This document shows, one piece after another, positions 1,426 through 6,727 of a stretch of 23,435 nucleotides of DNA. Both the position numbers and the translations under genes were made by a program. The stretch lies in IMG/VR virus record IMGVR_UViG_3300009182_000326, positions 1-23,435 of that record. The stretch is one strand, 5' to 3'. The notes under the pieces are model-generated. The model was not told the DNA's origin. It saw nothing but the letters and a program-made list of their open reading frames with translations, and ran no database searches. Each line of letters opens with the position of its first letter. Position 1 is the first letter of the stretch. Source of the DNA: a virus.

Positions 1426-1620
1426 TTAAGCAGCCTTAGCTTGTTTACGGGCATTCTTTTCCGCAGTGATTTCGTTGCGACGTGCTTTAATCAGTTTGCT
1501 CATTTCAGCCAATGCTTTACGGGCACGGGTTCCTGCTGCGGCATTGCCTTCTATGAATTTTGTGTCTTCTTTCAAAAATTCTTCGTATTGTGTTTTTAAT
1601 TGATCTACAGTACTATTCAT
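1426..1620 (-). CDS. Hc1-like (histone H1-like) nucleoid protein
   Basis: A 64-residue basic protein with the Hc1 signature. The helix around residues 24-50 contains EGNAAAGTRARKALAEMSKL, matching the GNKAAGTRARK-type motif of small bacterial histone-H1-like proteins. The tail is lysine- and alanine-rich (KNARKQAKAA). Family members bind DNA non-specifically and help compact or organise it. The start at 1620 is chosen because AAAGGA sits 7 bases upstream; the longer reading from 1662 would overlap the neighbour extensively and lacks such a site. The start overlaps the stop of the AT-hook gene by 8 bases, implying translational coupling. Encoding such a protein next to an AT-hook protein and gp46/47 suggests a role in coating or packaging phage or host DNA during recombination. 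That role is inference; the family assignment is fairly firm. Confidence 0.75.
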   Translation of the reverse strand: MNSTVDQLKTQYEEFLKEDTKFIEGNAAAGTRARKALAEMSKLIKARRNEITAEKNARKQAKAA

Positions 1621-2050
1621 TTGTATTTTCCTTTGTTGTGTTTTGTTGTTCTGTGGGAACATCTGTGCTAACTACCTGTTTTCTAGGTCTACCTCTTATT
1701 CTACTTCTTTCTTCAACTCTAGGCCTTCTAGTTACTTCTTTTCTAGGTCTTCCTCTTTTACCAGGACCCACTCTTGATTGTTTTTTCAACCAAGCATCGT
1801 GATTCCTAACAGGAGCTCCCAGCGGGGGTGGCGAAATTTCTCTTTGAATTTTTTCTGCTTCCATGCATATTTTGATCATGTCAAAATATAGCTTTTTCAG
1901 TTTCCTCAAGTGATTTCTTAGTTTTTTGCCAGGCTTATTTCTCAGCCGCTTAAATTCCAAGAACTCATAATGATAATTATGCAGATCCAAAAAGGCCTGT
2001 AAAGATTCTGAGTATAGTTTTTTATACTTTTCTAATGGCTCATTCAACAT
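1613..2050 (-). CDS. Twin AT-hook DNA-binding protein
   Basis: A 145-residue basic protein. Residues 1-72 are predicted helical and charged, possibly a coiled coil, with a cluster KKLRNHLRKLKK at 42-53. A proline-rich turn (SPPPLGAP, 73-80) leads to two AT-hooks. Their GRPRK cores (100-104 and 120-124) are each flanked by arginines and lysines and lie exactly 20 residues apart. The tail is polar (Q/T/N/E). AT-hooks insert a GRP core into the minor groove of AT-rich DNA, which suits this AT-rich genome. The ATG at 2050 overlaps the gp46 stop (11 bases), and no Shine-Dalgarno is evident, so coupling to gp46 translation is likely. An in-frame GTG at 2083 is an alternative start. Exact function unknown; an architectural or regulatory DNA-binding role is inferred. 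Confidence 0.8.
   Translation of the reverse strand: MLNEPLEKYKKLYSESLQAFLDLHNYHYEFLEFKRLRNKPGKKLRNHLRKLKKLYFDMIKICMEAEKIQREISPPPLGAPVRNHDAWLKKQSRVGPGKRGRPRKEVTRRPRVEERSRIRGRPRKQVVSTDVPTEQQNTTKENTNE
1679..1757. repeat. Direct repeat encoding the two AT-hooks
   Basis: The 19-base unit at 1679-1697 recurs at 1739-1757 with one mismatch, exactly 60 bases (20 codons) apart, in the DNA that encodes the two AT-hook cores. The identity at DNA level indicates duplication of the motif, or strong selection on both copies. Confidence 0.75.
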
Positions 2051-3824
2051 AATCAGAACTATTTGAGTAGGTAGTAAAACCACCTTCCTTGACTACCCTT
2101 AGAATATTATTGACTCTACTGATCAATTCATCTTTATGGCTGATCAAATAGATATTTTTATTTCGTTCTCTGGCCATTTTCTTCAATACTGCTAGGGCGC
2201 TTTCAACACCAGCACCATCCATGCCAGAATCTACCAATTCATCAATAAACAACAAATTAACATTTTGATATAATCCTTCCCATACATCACGGAATGCAAA
2301 GCTCATGGACAATATCAAACGATTGCGTTCTCCTCTGGATAAATTATCAAAATCAAGTTCCTGACCTAATTGAGTAATTTGAACACTTAAATCATTTTGA
2401 AACACTACTTGATGTGGTAAACCTAATCGATCAATATAATAACTCAATCTCTTATTGAGATAACTTAGATTTTGATCAATGATTTTCTTTCGAATAAAAC
2501 TATCTTTGTTAGTTAATAATTTTAATAGATAATCTTGATGATCTCGCAATTTACTTAAGTCGTTTACCAAAGTCCAATCCACGATTTGTAAAGCACTTTT
2601 CTTTAATTCTCCAATTTGTTCTTCATAAGGGTTGGCACTATCCGCCCTTTCCATTAAATTTTTTTCTAAACTATCTAGATTATTTTTATGACCTAGGGCT
2701 TCTTTTTCACTTTCGTAAAAAGTAATAGGACGTCGTAGTTGTTCACCAATTAAGGCAATTGCTTCGTTAACTTCAGACAATTCTTTGACAATTTTATTTT
2801 TATACACAATAGCATCGGCATGATGTTTTTTAGCTGTGGTGTTCATTTCCTCATGTTTGTGATCAAGTAAATCTTGTTCACAAGCAGGGCAGGTTTTACT
2901 ACTTAATTTTTCTAAATCTTGAGTATATTTGTTCAGTGTTTTTTCAGCCTGTATCTCTGCACTTTCTAGTGTGGCCTTTTGTTTTCTAAGTCCAGACAAC
3001 AAAGAATTGTTTTCTTCCCATATTTTTAATTCAACATGTGCAGCAATTTCTCCATCAATATCTACTTCTGTTAATGTATGGATATTTTTTATTAATGATG
3101 CTACATCACTTTCTTTTTTGCTGGCCCATGCATTACTTTTACTAACTAGCCCTTCAATGCTTCTTTGCACACCTTCATTGGCTCTTTTAATTGCTTCAAT
3201 ATTAGCAGTTTCCGTAACGATGCTGTCTTTGATTTCTTTAAGAGCAATTTTAAGTAGTTCAGCCTTTTCACTCAGTAATGTGATGCCCAATAGTTGTTCA
3301 ATTACCTCACGTTGATCACTGACACGCATACTGAGGAACGGTTCGGTATATGTGTTCAATGCCACCAAATGTTTAAACATAGTATGGCTCATTTGCAACA
3401 TTTGTTCGATTGCTTTTTGTGTCTCTCTACTATCGCCTTGACTGTCGTCCTCTGACTCATCAGTTTTGATCTGATTATCATTAACAAACAATTTTAAAAT
3501 ATTAGGTTTTCTACCACGTTCAATTCTGTAGACATTGTTATCTTTTTCAAATTCCACAGTGACCAACATGCCTTTGCCATTAATCTTGTTAATTAAATTT
3601 TCTTTACGGATGTTAGTTAATGCTTGACCATAAAGTGCATAGCTTAATGCATTCACAATAGTGGTTTTACCAGTACCATTTCTTGAACCAGTATCCTCTC
3701 CACCAAGATCAAGATTGGATCCTAATACTAGAGTTAAATTTTCTTTATCAAATGCAACTGCTTGTGATACATTACCCACGCTCATAAAGTTGCGTACGGT
3801 TAAATTGCTGATTTTAAATGTCAT
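2040..3824 (-). CDS. 46: gp46 recombination endonuclease subunit (SbcC/Rad50-like ATPase)
   Basis: A 594-residue SMC-type ATPase (T4 gp46 is 560). The N-terminal half-site has Walker A GSRNGTGKTT (46-55). Long helical arms follow, with a zinc-hook CPAC (312-315) that would join two subunits. The C-terminal half-site has the ABC signature LSRGER (495-500), Walker B LLFIDEL (524-530), a D-loop region (VDSGMD) and the H-loop ISHKDE (561-566). All expected catalytic elements are intact. With gp47 it forms the Mre11-Rad50-like complex. That complex resects double-strand ends for recombination-dependent replication and contributes to degradation of host DNA. The start overlaps the end of gene 47 by 4 bases (ATGA), the classic coupled arrangement. 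Its 3' end overlaps the AT-hook gene. Confidence 0.96.
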   Translation of the reverse strand: MTFKISNLTVRNFMSVGNVSQAVAFDKENLTLVLGSNLDLGGEDTGSRNGTGKTTIVNALSYALYGQALTNIRKENLINKINGKGMLVTVEFEKDNNVYRIERGRKPNILKLFVNDNQIKTDESEDDSQGDSRETQKAIEQMLQMSHTMFKHLVALNTYTEPFLSMRVSDQREVIEQLLGITLLSEKAELLKIALKEIKDSIVTETANIEAIKRANEGVQRSIEGLVSKSNAWASKKESDVASLIKNIHTLTEVDIDGEIAAHVELKIWEENNSLLSGLRKQKATLESAEIQAEKTLNKYTQDLEKLSSKTCPACEQDLLDHKHEEMNTTAKKHHADAIVYKNKIVKELSEVNEAIALIGEQLRRPITFYESEKEALGHKNNLDSLEKNLMERADSANPYEEQIGELKKSALQIVDWTLVNDLSKLRDHQDYLLKLLTNKDSFIRKKIIDQNLSYLNKRLSYYIDRLGLPHQVVFQNDLSVQITQLGQELDFDNLSRGERNRLILSMSFAFRDVWEGLYQNVNLLFIDELVDSGMDGAGVESALAVLKKMARERNKNIYLISHKDELISRVNNILRVVKEGGFTTYSNSSDYVE

Positions 3825-4834
3825 AGATCGTTATAAAGTTGAAGCAAAACAGAATTATCAAATTGTCCATTTTCTAAATTAACTAGTCCTTCTATCACAA
3901 TTTGATCCACACTACTGAATAAACCATCTGGACTTTCGTCTACTGTGCCTTCTAAATTAGTTTTATCTTGTGTCAAACTAATTTCACGTATATCATATTT
4001 TTCTGTGAATTCTTCTTTGATAAAATTGGCTTCTTCAAAAGTAATATCAATGTCTAGATTCACTCTCAAATGCATTTTTGATTTCATCAATGAATCTTTT
4101 TCGTCAATCAATCTACTTAATGGCAGCGTTCTATATTTGGGGCAATCGGCCCAGTTAATGTATTTGGGTTCTCCTCCCCATTCTAAAATCATCATTCCGC
4201 GATCATCGTCCCACGAGTCGGCAAAATTATGAGGAAATGCATTACCAATATAGTGTACCTTACTTCTACTTTGACGTTTATGGAAATGTCCGCTGAACAC
4301 ATAGTCTTGATGATGGAAATGATCCACCTGCAATTCTCCGTGATCTGGCATTTGTACCATAGCATTCATATAGAATAATGGCAACTCAAAGTGTCCAAAC
4401 ATATATTTGCTTTTAACTTGACTAATGGTTTTCCATTCATCGCCAACTAACCACGGGACTAGGGTGACATCATCAAGCGTTGTAACACTATCTACAACAG
4501 TGACTCCTGGAATGTGCCGTCCGAAAGCACTAGAATGAATGTCACGCTTGTCTTTGTAAAATAAATCGTGATTGCCTGGAAACCAAAAGAATTGATCAAA
4601 AGCGCCACCTAACTTCTCTAAAAGTATCAAAGAAGTATTCAGAGTGAATAAATTCAAACTGTTTCTGTTATGGCTCCAATCACCCATGAATATACCAGTA
4701 TCACAACCAGCTTCTTTGGCTTGACTGATAAACCAATCCACAAATTCTTCACAATCTCTTAAATGTGTAGTAGAGTTAGACTTTAGCCCAACATGAAGAT
4801 CTGTGAATACTGCTACTTTTTTAAATAAGCTCAT
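3821..4834 (-). CDS. 47: gp47 recombination endonuclease subunit (SbcD/Mre11-like nuclease)
   Basis: A 337-residue calcineurin-like metallophosphoesterase (T4 gp47 is 339). Metal-binding motifs are in the standard order: DLH (12-14), GDWSHNR (51-57), GNHD (87-90), FGHFE (146-150) and SGHFHKRQ (181-188). The C-terminal third would carry the gp46-binding region. It supplies the Mn-dependent 3'-5' exonuclease and endonuclease activity of the gp46/47 complex used for end resection. The ATG at 4834 has AAGGA 8 bases upstream (4843-4847), and a sigma70-like promoter lies just ahead. It is probably the first gene of the minus-strand operon running to 255. Confidence 0.96.
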   Translation of the reverse strand: MSLFKKVAVFTDLHVGLKSNSTTHLRDCEEFVDWFISQAKEAGCDTGIFMGDWSHNRNSLNLFTLNTSLILLEKLGGAFDQFFWFPGNHDLFYKDKRDIHSSAFGRHIPGVTVVDSVTTLDDVTLVPWLVGDEWKTISQVKSKYMFGHFELPLFYMNAMVQMPDHGELQVDHFHHQDYVFSGHFHKRQSRSKVHYIGNAFPHNFADSWDDDRGMMILEWGGEPKYINWADCPKYRTLPLSRLIDEKDSLMKSKMHLRVNLDIDITFEEANFIKEEFTEKYDIREISLTQDKTNLEGTVDESPDGLFSSVDQIVIEGLVNLENGQFDNSVLLQLYNDL

Positions 4835-4884: not shown

Positions 4885-5826
4885 TTAAATATTTTCAGAA
4901 CCTTCTTCCTCTATTTCTTCTACAGGATCTTCATCACTCTTTGGCAATCTCATATTTGGTGAACGCATATTTTTATATAGTTCCGCCTGTCTAGCAATTT
5001 CTTCAGCGTATTCCTGACTATGTTGCCTAGTCATGCTAGGTGTTAGACCAGCTTCTTCCATAAGATCATCACGAATATTTTGATTCTTTTTTTCCATATT
5101 CAATATTCTAGTGAATGAATTAGTTACAGCGGCAGTATAGTAGGCAAAGGGGTTTTCACTTTTACTTTCATCAAATTGCAATCCAATCTGACTTAGTTGT
5201 AGTATGGCTTGGCCCTTCATTTCTTCAATGTAGGTATAACCACGCCAGTTACTACGTTGTGCATATCTTTCACTGAGTTTGATAAACATCTTCCCAAGAT
5301 TTTCAGTAATTCTACCGTGATCTTTACTGAACTTTCCGCTTTTAATTGGGCCTTTCCAGTGGCTTTTACCTACGCATGTCAATTGATCTGCATCGTTGAA
5401 TTTCCAATGTTGAAATGGGGGAAAGTTAACTTTTTCGTGGCTATCAGCAGTATTTTTTAAAGTCTTTTTCCTACCAGGAGAGAGGGGAATATGATCAAAA
5501 GTCATAATTCTAATAATAATGTCAGTTTTAATGATATTATCAGTGCTGGGAATACACTCGGATAATTTTATTTTCTTATCCCCACCTATTCTAGCCTTAC
5601 TAAAAATCTCCAATCCCAATCTTTTGGCTCTATGATTTTTAGCTTCTTCAATAATTTTATTATCAATTTTATCTAAACTGCTAACAATTATGTCATATTG
5701 TTGATAATTGGGGCTAGTAAAGCTGGAATAGGAGCATTTGCTATAATGGATTTCTGATAATAAATCTTTATTATTAAGATATTTTACTTTTCTGCCAGTT
5801 GGGGCAAAATATGTAGATGTAGTCAT
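4885..5826 (-). CDS. 55: gp55 late-transcription sigma factor with extended N-terminus
   Basis: A 313-residue protein whose C-terminal half is gp55-like. Residues 172-255 include SERYAQRSNWRGYTY (185-199), EEMKGQAILQLSQIGLQFD (201-219), a KSENPFAYYTAAVTNSF segment (222-238) and the ILNMEKKNQN tail (241-250), as in T4-type late sigma factors. These direct RNA polymerase to TATAAATA-type late promoters. T4 gp55 has only 185 residues. Here about 165 extra N-terminal residues include FDHIPLSPGRKK (110-121) and VNFPPFQHW (133-141), of unknown function. The C-terminus is acidic (299-313), where T4 gp55 has its sliding-clamp contact, but I do not see a clear clamp motif. The ATG at 5826 is preferred to an upstream in-frame TTG (5880), which would fall inside the promoter; AAGGA lies about 13 bases upstream. 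Divergent from the structural genes that it probably activates. Confidence 0.9.
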   Translation of the reverse strand: MTTSTYFAPTGRKVKYLNNKDLLSEIHYSKCSYSSFTSPNYQQYDIIVSSLDKIDNKIIEEAKNHRAKRLGLEIFSKARIGGDKKIKLSECIPSTDNIIKTDIIIRIMTFDHIPLSPGRKKTLKNTADSHEKVNFPPFQHWKFNDADQLTCVGKSHWKGPIKSGKFSKDHGRITENLGKMFIKLSERYAQRSNWRGYTYIEEMKGQAILQLSQIGLQFDESKSENPFAYYTAAVTNSFTRILNMEKKNQNIRDDLMEEAGLTPSMTRQHSQEYAEEIARQAELYKNMRSPNMRLPKSDEDPVEEIEEEGSENI

Positions 5827-5852
5827 GTTATTATTATTTTCCTTATTTTTTA

Positions 5853-5880
5853 AGTATAACACACAACTTGATACTGTCAA
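5853..5880 (-). promoter_or_regulatory. Sigma70-type promoter for gene 55
   Basis: On the minus strand, a perfect TTGACA (5880-5875) and TATACT (5858-5853, 5/6) have a 16-base spacer. Predicted start is near 5846, about 20 bases before the ATG and next to the AAGGA ribosome site. This is the best host-type promoter in the window and fits early or middle expression of a late sigma factor by unmodified host RNA polymerase. Confidence 0.65.
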
Positions 5881-5896
5881 CTGTTATGTTTATAGT
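5868..5896 (+). promoter_or_regulatory. Sigma70-type promoter facing the structural genes
   Basis: On the plus strand, TTGATA (5868-5873, 5/6) and TATAGT (5891-5896, 5/6) have an ideal 17-base spacer. Predicted start is near 5903, giving a leader of about 36 bases to the ATG at 5939. Its -35 box lies inside the spacer of the gene 55 promoter and is shifted only a few bases from the opposing -35 box (5875-5880). Polymerases firing in the two directions would therefore compete. Confidence 0.5.
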
Positions 5897-5903
5897 AGCA
5901 CTT

Positions 5904-5911
5904 TATTTATG
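5904..5911 (-). promoter_or_regulatory. Possible late promoter octamer towards gene 55
   Basis: Minus-strand CATAAATA matches the T4 late octamer TATAAATA at 7 of 8 positions. It lies in the intergenic region upstream of gene 55 (leader about 70 bases) and could allow gp55 to activate its own gene. AT-rich intergenic DNA makes chance matches common. Confidence 0.3.
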
Positions 5912-5919
5912 GTTAAATA
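5912..5919 (+). promoter_or_regulatory. Possible late promoter octamer for the baseplate block
   Basis: Plus-strand GTTAAATA matches TATAAATA at 6 of 8 positions. The predicted start would fall near 5925, immediately before the AAGGA ribosome site (5926-5930) of the gene at 5939. The spacing from octamer to start codon is similar to that before gene 6. The sequence match is weak. Confidence 0.25.
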
Positions 5920-5938
5920 GCTAATAAGGAATATATTT

Positions 5939-6727
5939 ATGGCAACTTCGTCAATTGTAGGACCAACTTCAGATTCAGGTGGCGGACAGTCATCGTCTAA
6001 TTTTGCTGCCACTGATCCTAAGAGATTGGATGTTAAAAATGGTAGTCCTAGATCTGCTCAGGCATTAAATGGGGCCAATGCAGTAGTTACTCCGGCAGCC
6101 AATGCAAACAGTATGACAAGAAATGGTAAAACAGATTTGCGAACTAGAATAATGGTTCCAAACTCTTATCTTACCCAATTAACTTCTGGATATAAAAATA
6201 ATTTGGGATTGTTACAAGGTATTATTTTTCCATATACTCCAACAATTACATATGAACATAAAGCTGAATACGCTACACAAAATCCACTACACAGCAATCA
6301 TTCCATAAATTTTTACAAATATAGTGCAGTAGGTGATATCAGTATTTCAGGAGTATTCACAGTACAAAGTAGGGCAGATGCTGTGACATATCTATCCATA
6401 TTACATTTATTAAGGGCTTTAACCAAAGGTAGATTTGGAGGTAGTGATCCTCTTAGAGGAAGCCCGCCTCCAGTTTGTAGATTATGGTCGCATGGCACCT
6501 TTATGTTGCAAAATGTACCAGTAGCCATTTCTAGTTTTAAAAATGACTTAATGCCTGAAGTGGATTATTTTTATTTAAAAGATGCTGTTTTTCAAGAAGC
6601 ATATGTTCCAGTGAAATCAACCATAGCGTTAACTTGTAAACCTATGTACAGCAGAAAAGAAATGTTAGATGCTACAGTTCCAGATTGGTTAAGTAGCAAG
6701 AATCAAAGAAGTTTGGGATTATTATAA
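5939..6727 (+). CDS. Tail-tube-cap/baseplate initiator-like virion protein
   Basis: A 262-residue protein. Residues 1-65 are low-complexity (Ser, Gly, Ala, Asn). The rest is a globular beta-rich domain with GIIFPYTPTITYEHKAEY (94-111), LHSNHSINFYKYS (117-129), ISISGVF (134-140), a helix LSILHLLRALTKGRFGG (152-168) and GSPPPVCRLWSHG (174-186). VDYFY (208-212) follows. This FPxTP...HSN...ISG.F...HxLR..TK...G.PPPV pattern is one I associate with baseplate or tube-initiation proteins of large myophages, the role of T4 gp48 and gp54. Direct similarity to those T4 sequences is not evident, so the number is not assigned. AAGGA (5926-5930) is 8 bases upstream of the ATG. The stop overlaps the gp53 start by one base (TAATG). 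Confidence 0.6.
   Translation: MATSSIVGPTSDSGGGQSSSNFAATDPKRLDVKNGSPRSAQALNGANAVVTPAANANSMTRNGKTDLRTRIMVPNSYLTQLTSGYKNNLGLLQGIIFPYTPTITYEHKAEYATQNPLHSNHSINFYKYSAVGDISISGVFTVQSRADAVTYLSILHLLRALTKGRFGGSDPLRGSPPPVCRLWSHGTFMLQNVPVAISSFKNDLMPEVDYFYLKDAVFQEAYVPVKSTIALTCKPMYSRKEMLDATVPDWLSSKNQRSLGLL

Follow-up and report, generated by a model that had tools for sequence, protein, structure and literature searches.

The 23,435-base IMG/VR virus record IMGVR_UViG_3300009182_000326, analyzed here over its full length (the window), encodes two small proteins directly downstream of a recombination nuclease: a 145 a.a protein with a predicted helical hairpin and two AT-hooks (protein X), and a 64 a.a Hc1-domain (histone H1-like) protein. 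In the lineage of the window, X is a core gene and Hc1 an accessory one, given that X is near-universal beside gp46 and Hc1 is absent from about a third of the loci. As to function, we see a roughly even chance that the two proteins make up a small module for DNA architecture, expressed with the replication and recombination genes in one group of T4-like phages.

Gene Organization

The window has a GC content of 33.5%, in line with the AT-rich phage genome described in the first-pass annotation. X and Hc1 lie in a minus-strand block which, in order of transcription, opens with a gp55-like late sigma factor (nt. 4885–5880; phrog_12791, E 3e-85) and continues with the SbcD-like nuclease subunit gp47 (nt. 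3821–4834; phrog_100, E 2e-56), the SbcC-like recombination nuclease subunit gp46 (nt. 2040–3824; phrog_77, E 2e-96), X (nt. 1613–2050), Hc1 (nt. 1426–1620), a methyltransferase that is outside the conserved core (nt. 683–1423; PF13489, E 2e-24), and a SegE-like GIY-YIG protein, which ends the block (nt. 255–695; PF19835, E 4e-33). The gp47 and gp46 genes overlap by 4 bases, gp46 and X by 11 bases (nt. 2040–2050), and X and Hc1 by 8 bases (nt. 1613–1620), with a probable ribosome-binding site for Hc1 (AAAGGA) inside the 3′ end of X. The coordinates and family names first assigned to the two genes, their 8-base overlap, and their coupling to SbcCD-like nuclease genes were all borne out by this inspection. 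A promoter-like TTGACA-16-TATACT sequence (nt. 5880–5853; a consensus match only) overlaps the start of the listed sigma factor ORF.

The flanking genes of the block merit brief comment. Few relatives have a methyltransferase at this location (L002, L056, L074, L163, and L164), and it appears to be a come-and-go cassette. The position of the SegE-like gene is kept in nearly all loci, unlike that of a typical mobile homing endonuclease, and its family naming is in conflict, as PHROG labels it "NAD synthetase" and Pfam SegE_GIY-YIG.

The orientation of the block bears on a possible role in genome packaging, in which X and Hc1 would condense the phage genome during late infection or be incorporated into the virion. 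Such a role was suggested for the Hc1 of moraphages (PMC12619734), and the phage genomes in question are probably large (gp46 relatives occur on contigs of up to 355 kb). However, X and Hc1 are co-directional with the replication and recombination genes, and the structural genes, starting at nt. 5939, are oppositely oriented. A search for the late promoter TATAAATA returned one match, fewer than expected by chance, and it lies away from the X and Hc1 genes. Given that a 64 a.a Hc1 lacking a Lys-rich tail is also, on paper, a weak condenser, we regard packaging as highly unlikely.

Conservation of the gp46-X-Hc1 Linkage

The linkage was examined from two directions. In an Hc1-anchored search of IMG/VR, for which the best 80 of 154 loci were taken, X sits between gp46 and Hc1 wherever gp46 is within reach. 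In an independent gp46-anchored search, the closest 80 of more than 596 matches were taken, and 67 of these loci extend at least 1.2 kb downstream; the resulting figures describe the lineage of the window, not T4-like phages at large. X follows gp46 in 64 of the 67 loci, Hc1 is present in 44, and both are present in 43. The independent anchoring rules out that the linkage is an artefact of Hc1-anchored searching. The conserved order is sigma55-gp47-gp46-X-(Hc1)-SegE, with SegE being the next gene after X or Hc1 in nearly all loci. The first-pass annotation had treated X and Hc1 as a pair whose linkage should be conserved in relatives, and would have given up the proposal had it not been; the linkage is indeed conserved, but the pairing is not obligate, as roughly one locus in three has no Hc1.

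The overlaps are likewise conserved. Of 100 loci, 78 have overlapping gp46 and X genes, and in 52 the shared stretch is 11 bases long, as in the window; for X and Hc1, 62 of 77 loci show an overlap. Conserved overlap can reflect genome compactness rather than a common function, which counts against a joint module. Also counted against it is the history of Hc1, which was gained or lost at least nine times on the gp46 tree, indicating that X does not need Hc1. Where contigs of 354, 103, and 93 kb lack Hc1 beside gp46, no Hc1 was found elsewhere on them either.

This accessory behavior of Hc1 would suit a host take-over function, in which X, Hc1, or both would coat the nucleoid of the host or change its structure in early infection, either driving off the host's own nucleoid proteins or making host DNA available to gp46/47. 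Both genes are small and encode basic proteins, and there is precedent in the T4 protein MotB, which alters H-NS binding (PMC7827196). Typical early take-over genes are scattered, however, whereas nearly the whole lineage has X, in a fixed position next to gp46, and we consider this explanation rather unlikely.

We did note several rearrangements within the block. A 215 a.a ORF with an HNHFHPNS motif lies between X and Hc1 in four loci (L044, nt. 3219–3866; L047, nt. 5343–5990; L052 and L053, nt. 5343–5990) and, by eye only, resembles a 2-oxoglutarate/Fe(II) dioxygenase. In L044, X is broken into two short frames. In L029, L030, L031, L047, and L052, approximately 0.8 kb of extra sequence separates gp47 and gp46, which elsewhere overlap.

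The Hc1-Domain Protein

Hc1 of the window matches the Pfam family PF07432 over profile positions 1–56 of 57 (E 4.7e-14; 52.4 bits against a cut-off of 23.5) and, at 64 a.a, extends just 8 residues past the domain. AlphaFold2 predicts a single helical hairpin (helices at residues 4–23 and 27–63) with a pLDDT of 95. An alignment of 30 phage homologues revealed an invariant loop and helix start, GN-AAGTRARKAL, and the GN-AAG-R-RK core common to phage and bacterial homologues is present in the window protein, within the predicted hairpin. The near-invariant surface RARKAL...RR.EIT.EK could contact nucleic acid. A chance or low-complexity match is ruled out by the Pfam score (E 5e-14), the 154 relatives, and strong purifying selection (dN/dS 0.02–0.09 against the two closest relatives tested).

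The first-pass annotation had further stated that Hc1 proteins condense DNA, a statement that does not transfer to the phage protein. In chlamydial Hc1, as summarized in PMC2848022 (citing Pedersen 1996 and Remacha 1996), dimerization occurs via the N-terminal domain and DNA binding via the Lys-rich C-terminus. The window Hc1 resembles the chlamydial protein (HctA, PF07432) in its N-terminal domain along the full length, but does not have the Lys-rich C-terminal DNA-binding domain (PMC2848022), has no Lys-rich tail of any kind, and carries a net charge of only +4.5. As it amounts to the N-terminal domain and a stub, DNA condensation cannot be carried over to it. A short PAKK-type tail is seen in a minority of its relatives.

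Protein X and Its AT-Hooks

Protein X showed no consistent match to a known family among Pfam, PHROG, and PDB sequences, and Foldseek searches of PDB and BFVD returned generic helical hairpins alone, none with E < 0.001. All of its 94 distinct relatives lie beside gp46. AlphaFold2 confidently predicts a hairpin (helices at residues 3–32 and 40–72) and then a short helix (residues 81–94), while the basic tail, which holds both AT-hooks, is modeled at low confidence, as a disordered segment. The net charge of X is +17.9 in the window, with a family mean of +10.9.

The two AT-hooks are canonical by sequence (GKRGRPRKE and RIRGRPRKQ), with the codons for GKRGRPRK at approximately nt. 1738–1761 and those for RIRGRPRK at approximately nt. 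1678–1701 of the minus strand. The Pfam AT_hook model (PF02178) picks out residues 96–104, in the first hook, although at a score below its cut-off (E 0.38; 11.2 bits against 17.4). Given that this model has only 13 positions and scores textbook cores below cut-off, we instead tested the hooks on the X family as a whole. The GRP[RK] motif occurs in 24 of the 94 distinct X proteins. Shuffling the tails 500 times gave on average 0.4 such proteins and never more than 5, which rules out that the hooks are a by-product of basic tail composition and sustains the earlier description of twin AT-hooks, with their two RGRPRK cores. Near-variant hooks in other X proteins (RGRPPKG, KKRGRKPKG, and KKRGPKPKG) fall outside this count. 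More than half of the X proteins have a basic tail only, with no recognizable AT-hook, which speaks against a DNA-architecture module. Mapped on the gp46 tree, the strict hook state has changed 16 times or more, so the hooks have been repeatedly gained or lost. Hc1 co-occurs with 21 of the 24 hook-bearing X proteins, a figure for which a tree-corrected test has too few pairs. Hook-bearing loci have a GC content of 37.1% compared to 37.8% (P 0.04, uncorrected for relatedness), a difference too small to use.

Against the two closest relatives tested, X showed a dN/dS of 0.03–0.08; within the protein, the hairpin (0.01) is more constrained than the tail (0.07–0.26). Judging by dN/dS, both X and Hc1 are translated and strongly constrained by purifying selection.

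These properties could also fit an X that acts mainly through protein–protein contacts, for example as a partner or regulator of gp46/47, with the basic tail serving only to bring it to DNA and Hc1 being an unconnected passenger at a site before segE that tolerates insertions. X is found beside gp46 only, the hairpin is its most conserved part, and other genes have entered the same region (the methyltransferase, and the 215 a.a ORF in L044, L047, and L052). However, the recurrence of AT-hooks far above chance suggests selection for DNA binding itself, and PA5oct and Atu_ph07, whose gp46 is 44–49% identical, have no detectable X next to it, meaning gp46 has no general need of it. We think it rather unlikely that X is principally a partner of gp46/47.

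Relationship between X and Hc1

The X and Hc1 families were compared by HHalign. Shallow alignments gave about 1.5%, rising to 53% with deep profiles (93 X sequences; viral and bacterial Hc1), with a pairwise P of 1.4e-4 and a match that is collinear along the hairpin; the reversed-sequence control gave 0.6%. When the most Hc1-like X sequences were left out, the value was still 45%. In a restricted-column test, the real score was 23.0, compared to 20.0 for the best of 200 column shuffles that kept the heptads, and none of 200 shuffles reached the real score in either of two column-shuffle controls. Among 41 small-ORF families from the same loci, X and Hc1 were each other's best non-self match by a clear margin. 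The similarity is nonetheless below conventional significance, and common descent of the X hairpin and Hc1, as judged from these profiles, is likely but unproven.

A more far-reaching possibility is that X and Hc1, as tandem paralogues, jointly reconstitute a bacterial histone in two parts, with the tail-less Hc1 hairpin oligomerizing and the X hairpin carrying an AT-hook tail. AT-rich phage DNA would then be organized into a chromatin of the phage's own making, through which the access of its gp46/47 nuclease is controlled. We hold this to be distinctly unlikely.

Hc1 and X in Other Phages and Bacteria

Among isolated phages, those with the most similar gp46 (44–49% identity) are the PA5oct group, Phosso, and the Agrobacterium phage Atu_ph07, and neither X nor Hc1 was detectable in 8.7 kb around their gp46. 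Hc1 was detected in just one isolated phage, the cyanophage S-SRM01 (MW015081, annotated "histone H1"), where the context differs and both gp46 and X are absent from the 12 kb examined. In other uncultivated phages, Hc1 is a neighbor of ThyX or is found close to Cpn10 and a clamp-loader-like ATPase, placing it among DNA-metabolism genes there as well. Other phages can carry Hc1 apart from gp46, so its function is not confined to gp46/47, a further point against a module built around this nuclease. A 238-kb phage contig (G009, the record of L073) encodes a second, more distant Hc1-like ORF (C1, nt. 135054–135236; E 3e-9), far from the first.

In bacteria, the single-domain Hc1 of Alphaproteobacteria/Rickettsiales and Bacteroidota (~58 a.a) shares the GNKxAGTRARKAL core and is mostly tail-less, like that of the window. 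The two bacterial neighborhoods examined (L089 and L091) are chromosomal and, unlike the window, contain neither X nor gp46. Some Bacteroidia Hc1 proteins (L104, L107–L110, and L112) have Lys/Pro/Ala-rich tails, most ending in KKAPPKKK, and differ from the single-domain alphaproteobacterial and phage forms.

Nucleoid proteins encoded by phages are few in number, and most are isolated examples. Such proteins are known as a kind, as is phage-encoded Hc1, described in moraphages in 2025 (PMC12619734). The moraphage protein and the S-SRM01 "histone H1" (MW015081) are of the PF07432 type, like that of the window; the text of the moraphage paper makes no mention of gp46/SbcC or of an AT-hook, both of which characterize the arrangement seen here. 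T4 MotB (PMC7827196) is a working analogue, being a small, phage-made, DNA-binding protein acting at the level of the nucleoid, but its predicted KOW/OB-fold is unlike the X and Hc1 hairpins. AT-hook proteins of the HMGA type (PF02178) have RGRPRK cores in a disordered basic tail, as X does, but in X these hooks score below the Pfam cut-off and are joined to a helical hairpin with no consistent Pfam or PHROG match. On the T4 map, the gene for MotB is not known to lie next to gene 46. The first-pass annotation knew of no system with this exact pair and we likewise found none: within the open-licence literature, itself weak evidence of absence, no paper found describes the X family, the recurrence of hooks within it, or the gp46-X-Hc1 arrangement.

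Proposed Role and Implications

The module favored here rests on the linkage to gp46, the overlaps, the recurrence of the hooks, the charge of X, and the hairpin folds, together with the mutual match of X and Hc1, the domain roles in chlamydial Hc1 (PMC2848022), and the placement of Hc1 among DNA-metabolism genes elsewhere. X would be the constant part, comprising a hairpin that may serve as a dimerization or protein-contact unit and a flexible basic tail. Through its putative AT-hooks, X would hold AT-rich DNA by the minor groove, and through the hairpin it would self-associate. Hc1 would be an optional extra hairpin with no DNA-binding tail of its own, most likely oligomerizing with itself or with X, and its joining could turn DNA tethering by X into bridging or compaction. 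As the gp46 and X genes keep a fixed layout for translation, the module would most likely act on the DNA handled by gp46/47, namely replicating and recombining phage DNA, probably in the early to middle phase of infection, with a possible effect on the activity of the nuclease. The roles raised in the first-pass annotation, namely shielding of the phage genome from gp46/47, direction of that nuclease toward host DNA, and compaction, are not told apart by the sequence evidence.

In a whole group of uncultivated, probably large T4-like phages, a hairpin/AT-hook family not described before stays bound to the recombination nuclease, in many cases accompanied by a minimal histone-like domain of bacterial type. 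The phage Hc1 is also a naturally occurring case in which the function of the Hc1 domain can be examined in the absence of a DNA-binding tail. If the module does organize replicating DNA, it would provide a testable system for how phage DNA is made accessible to, or kept safe from, the phage's own end-resection nuclease.
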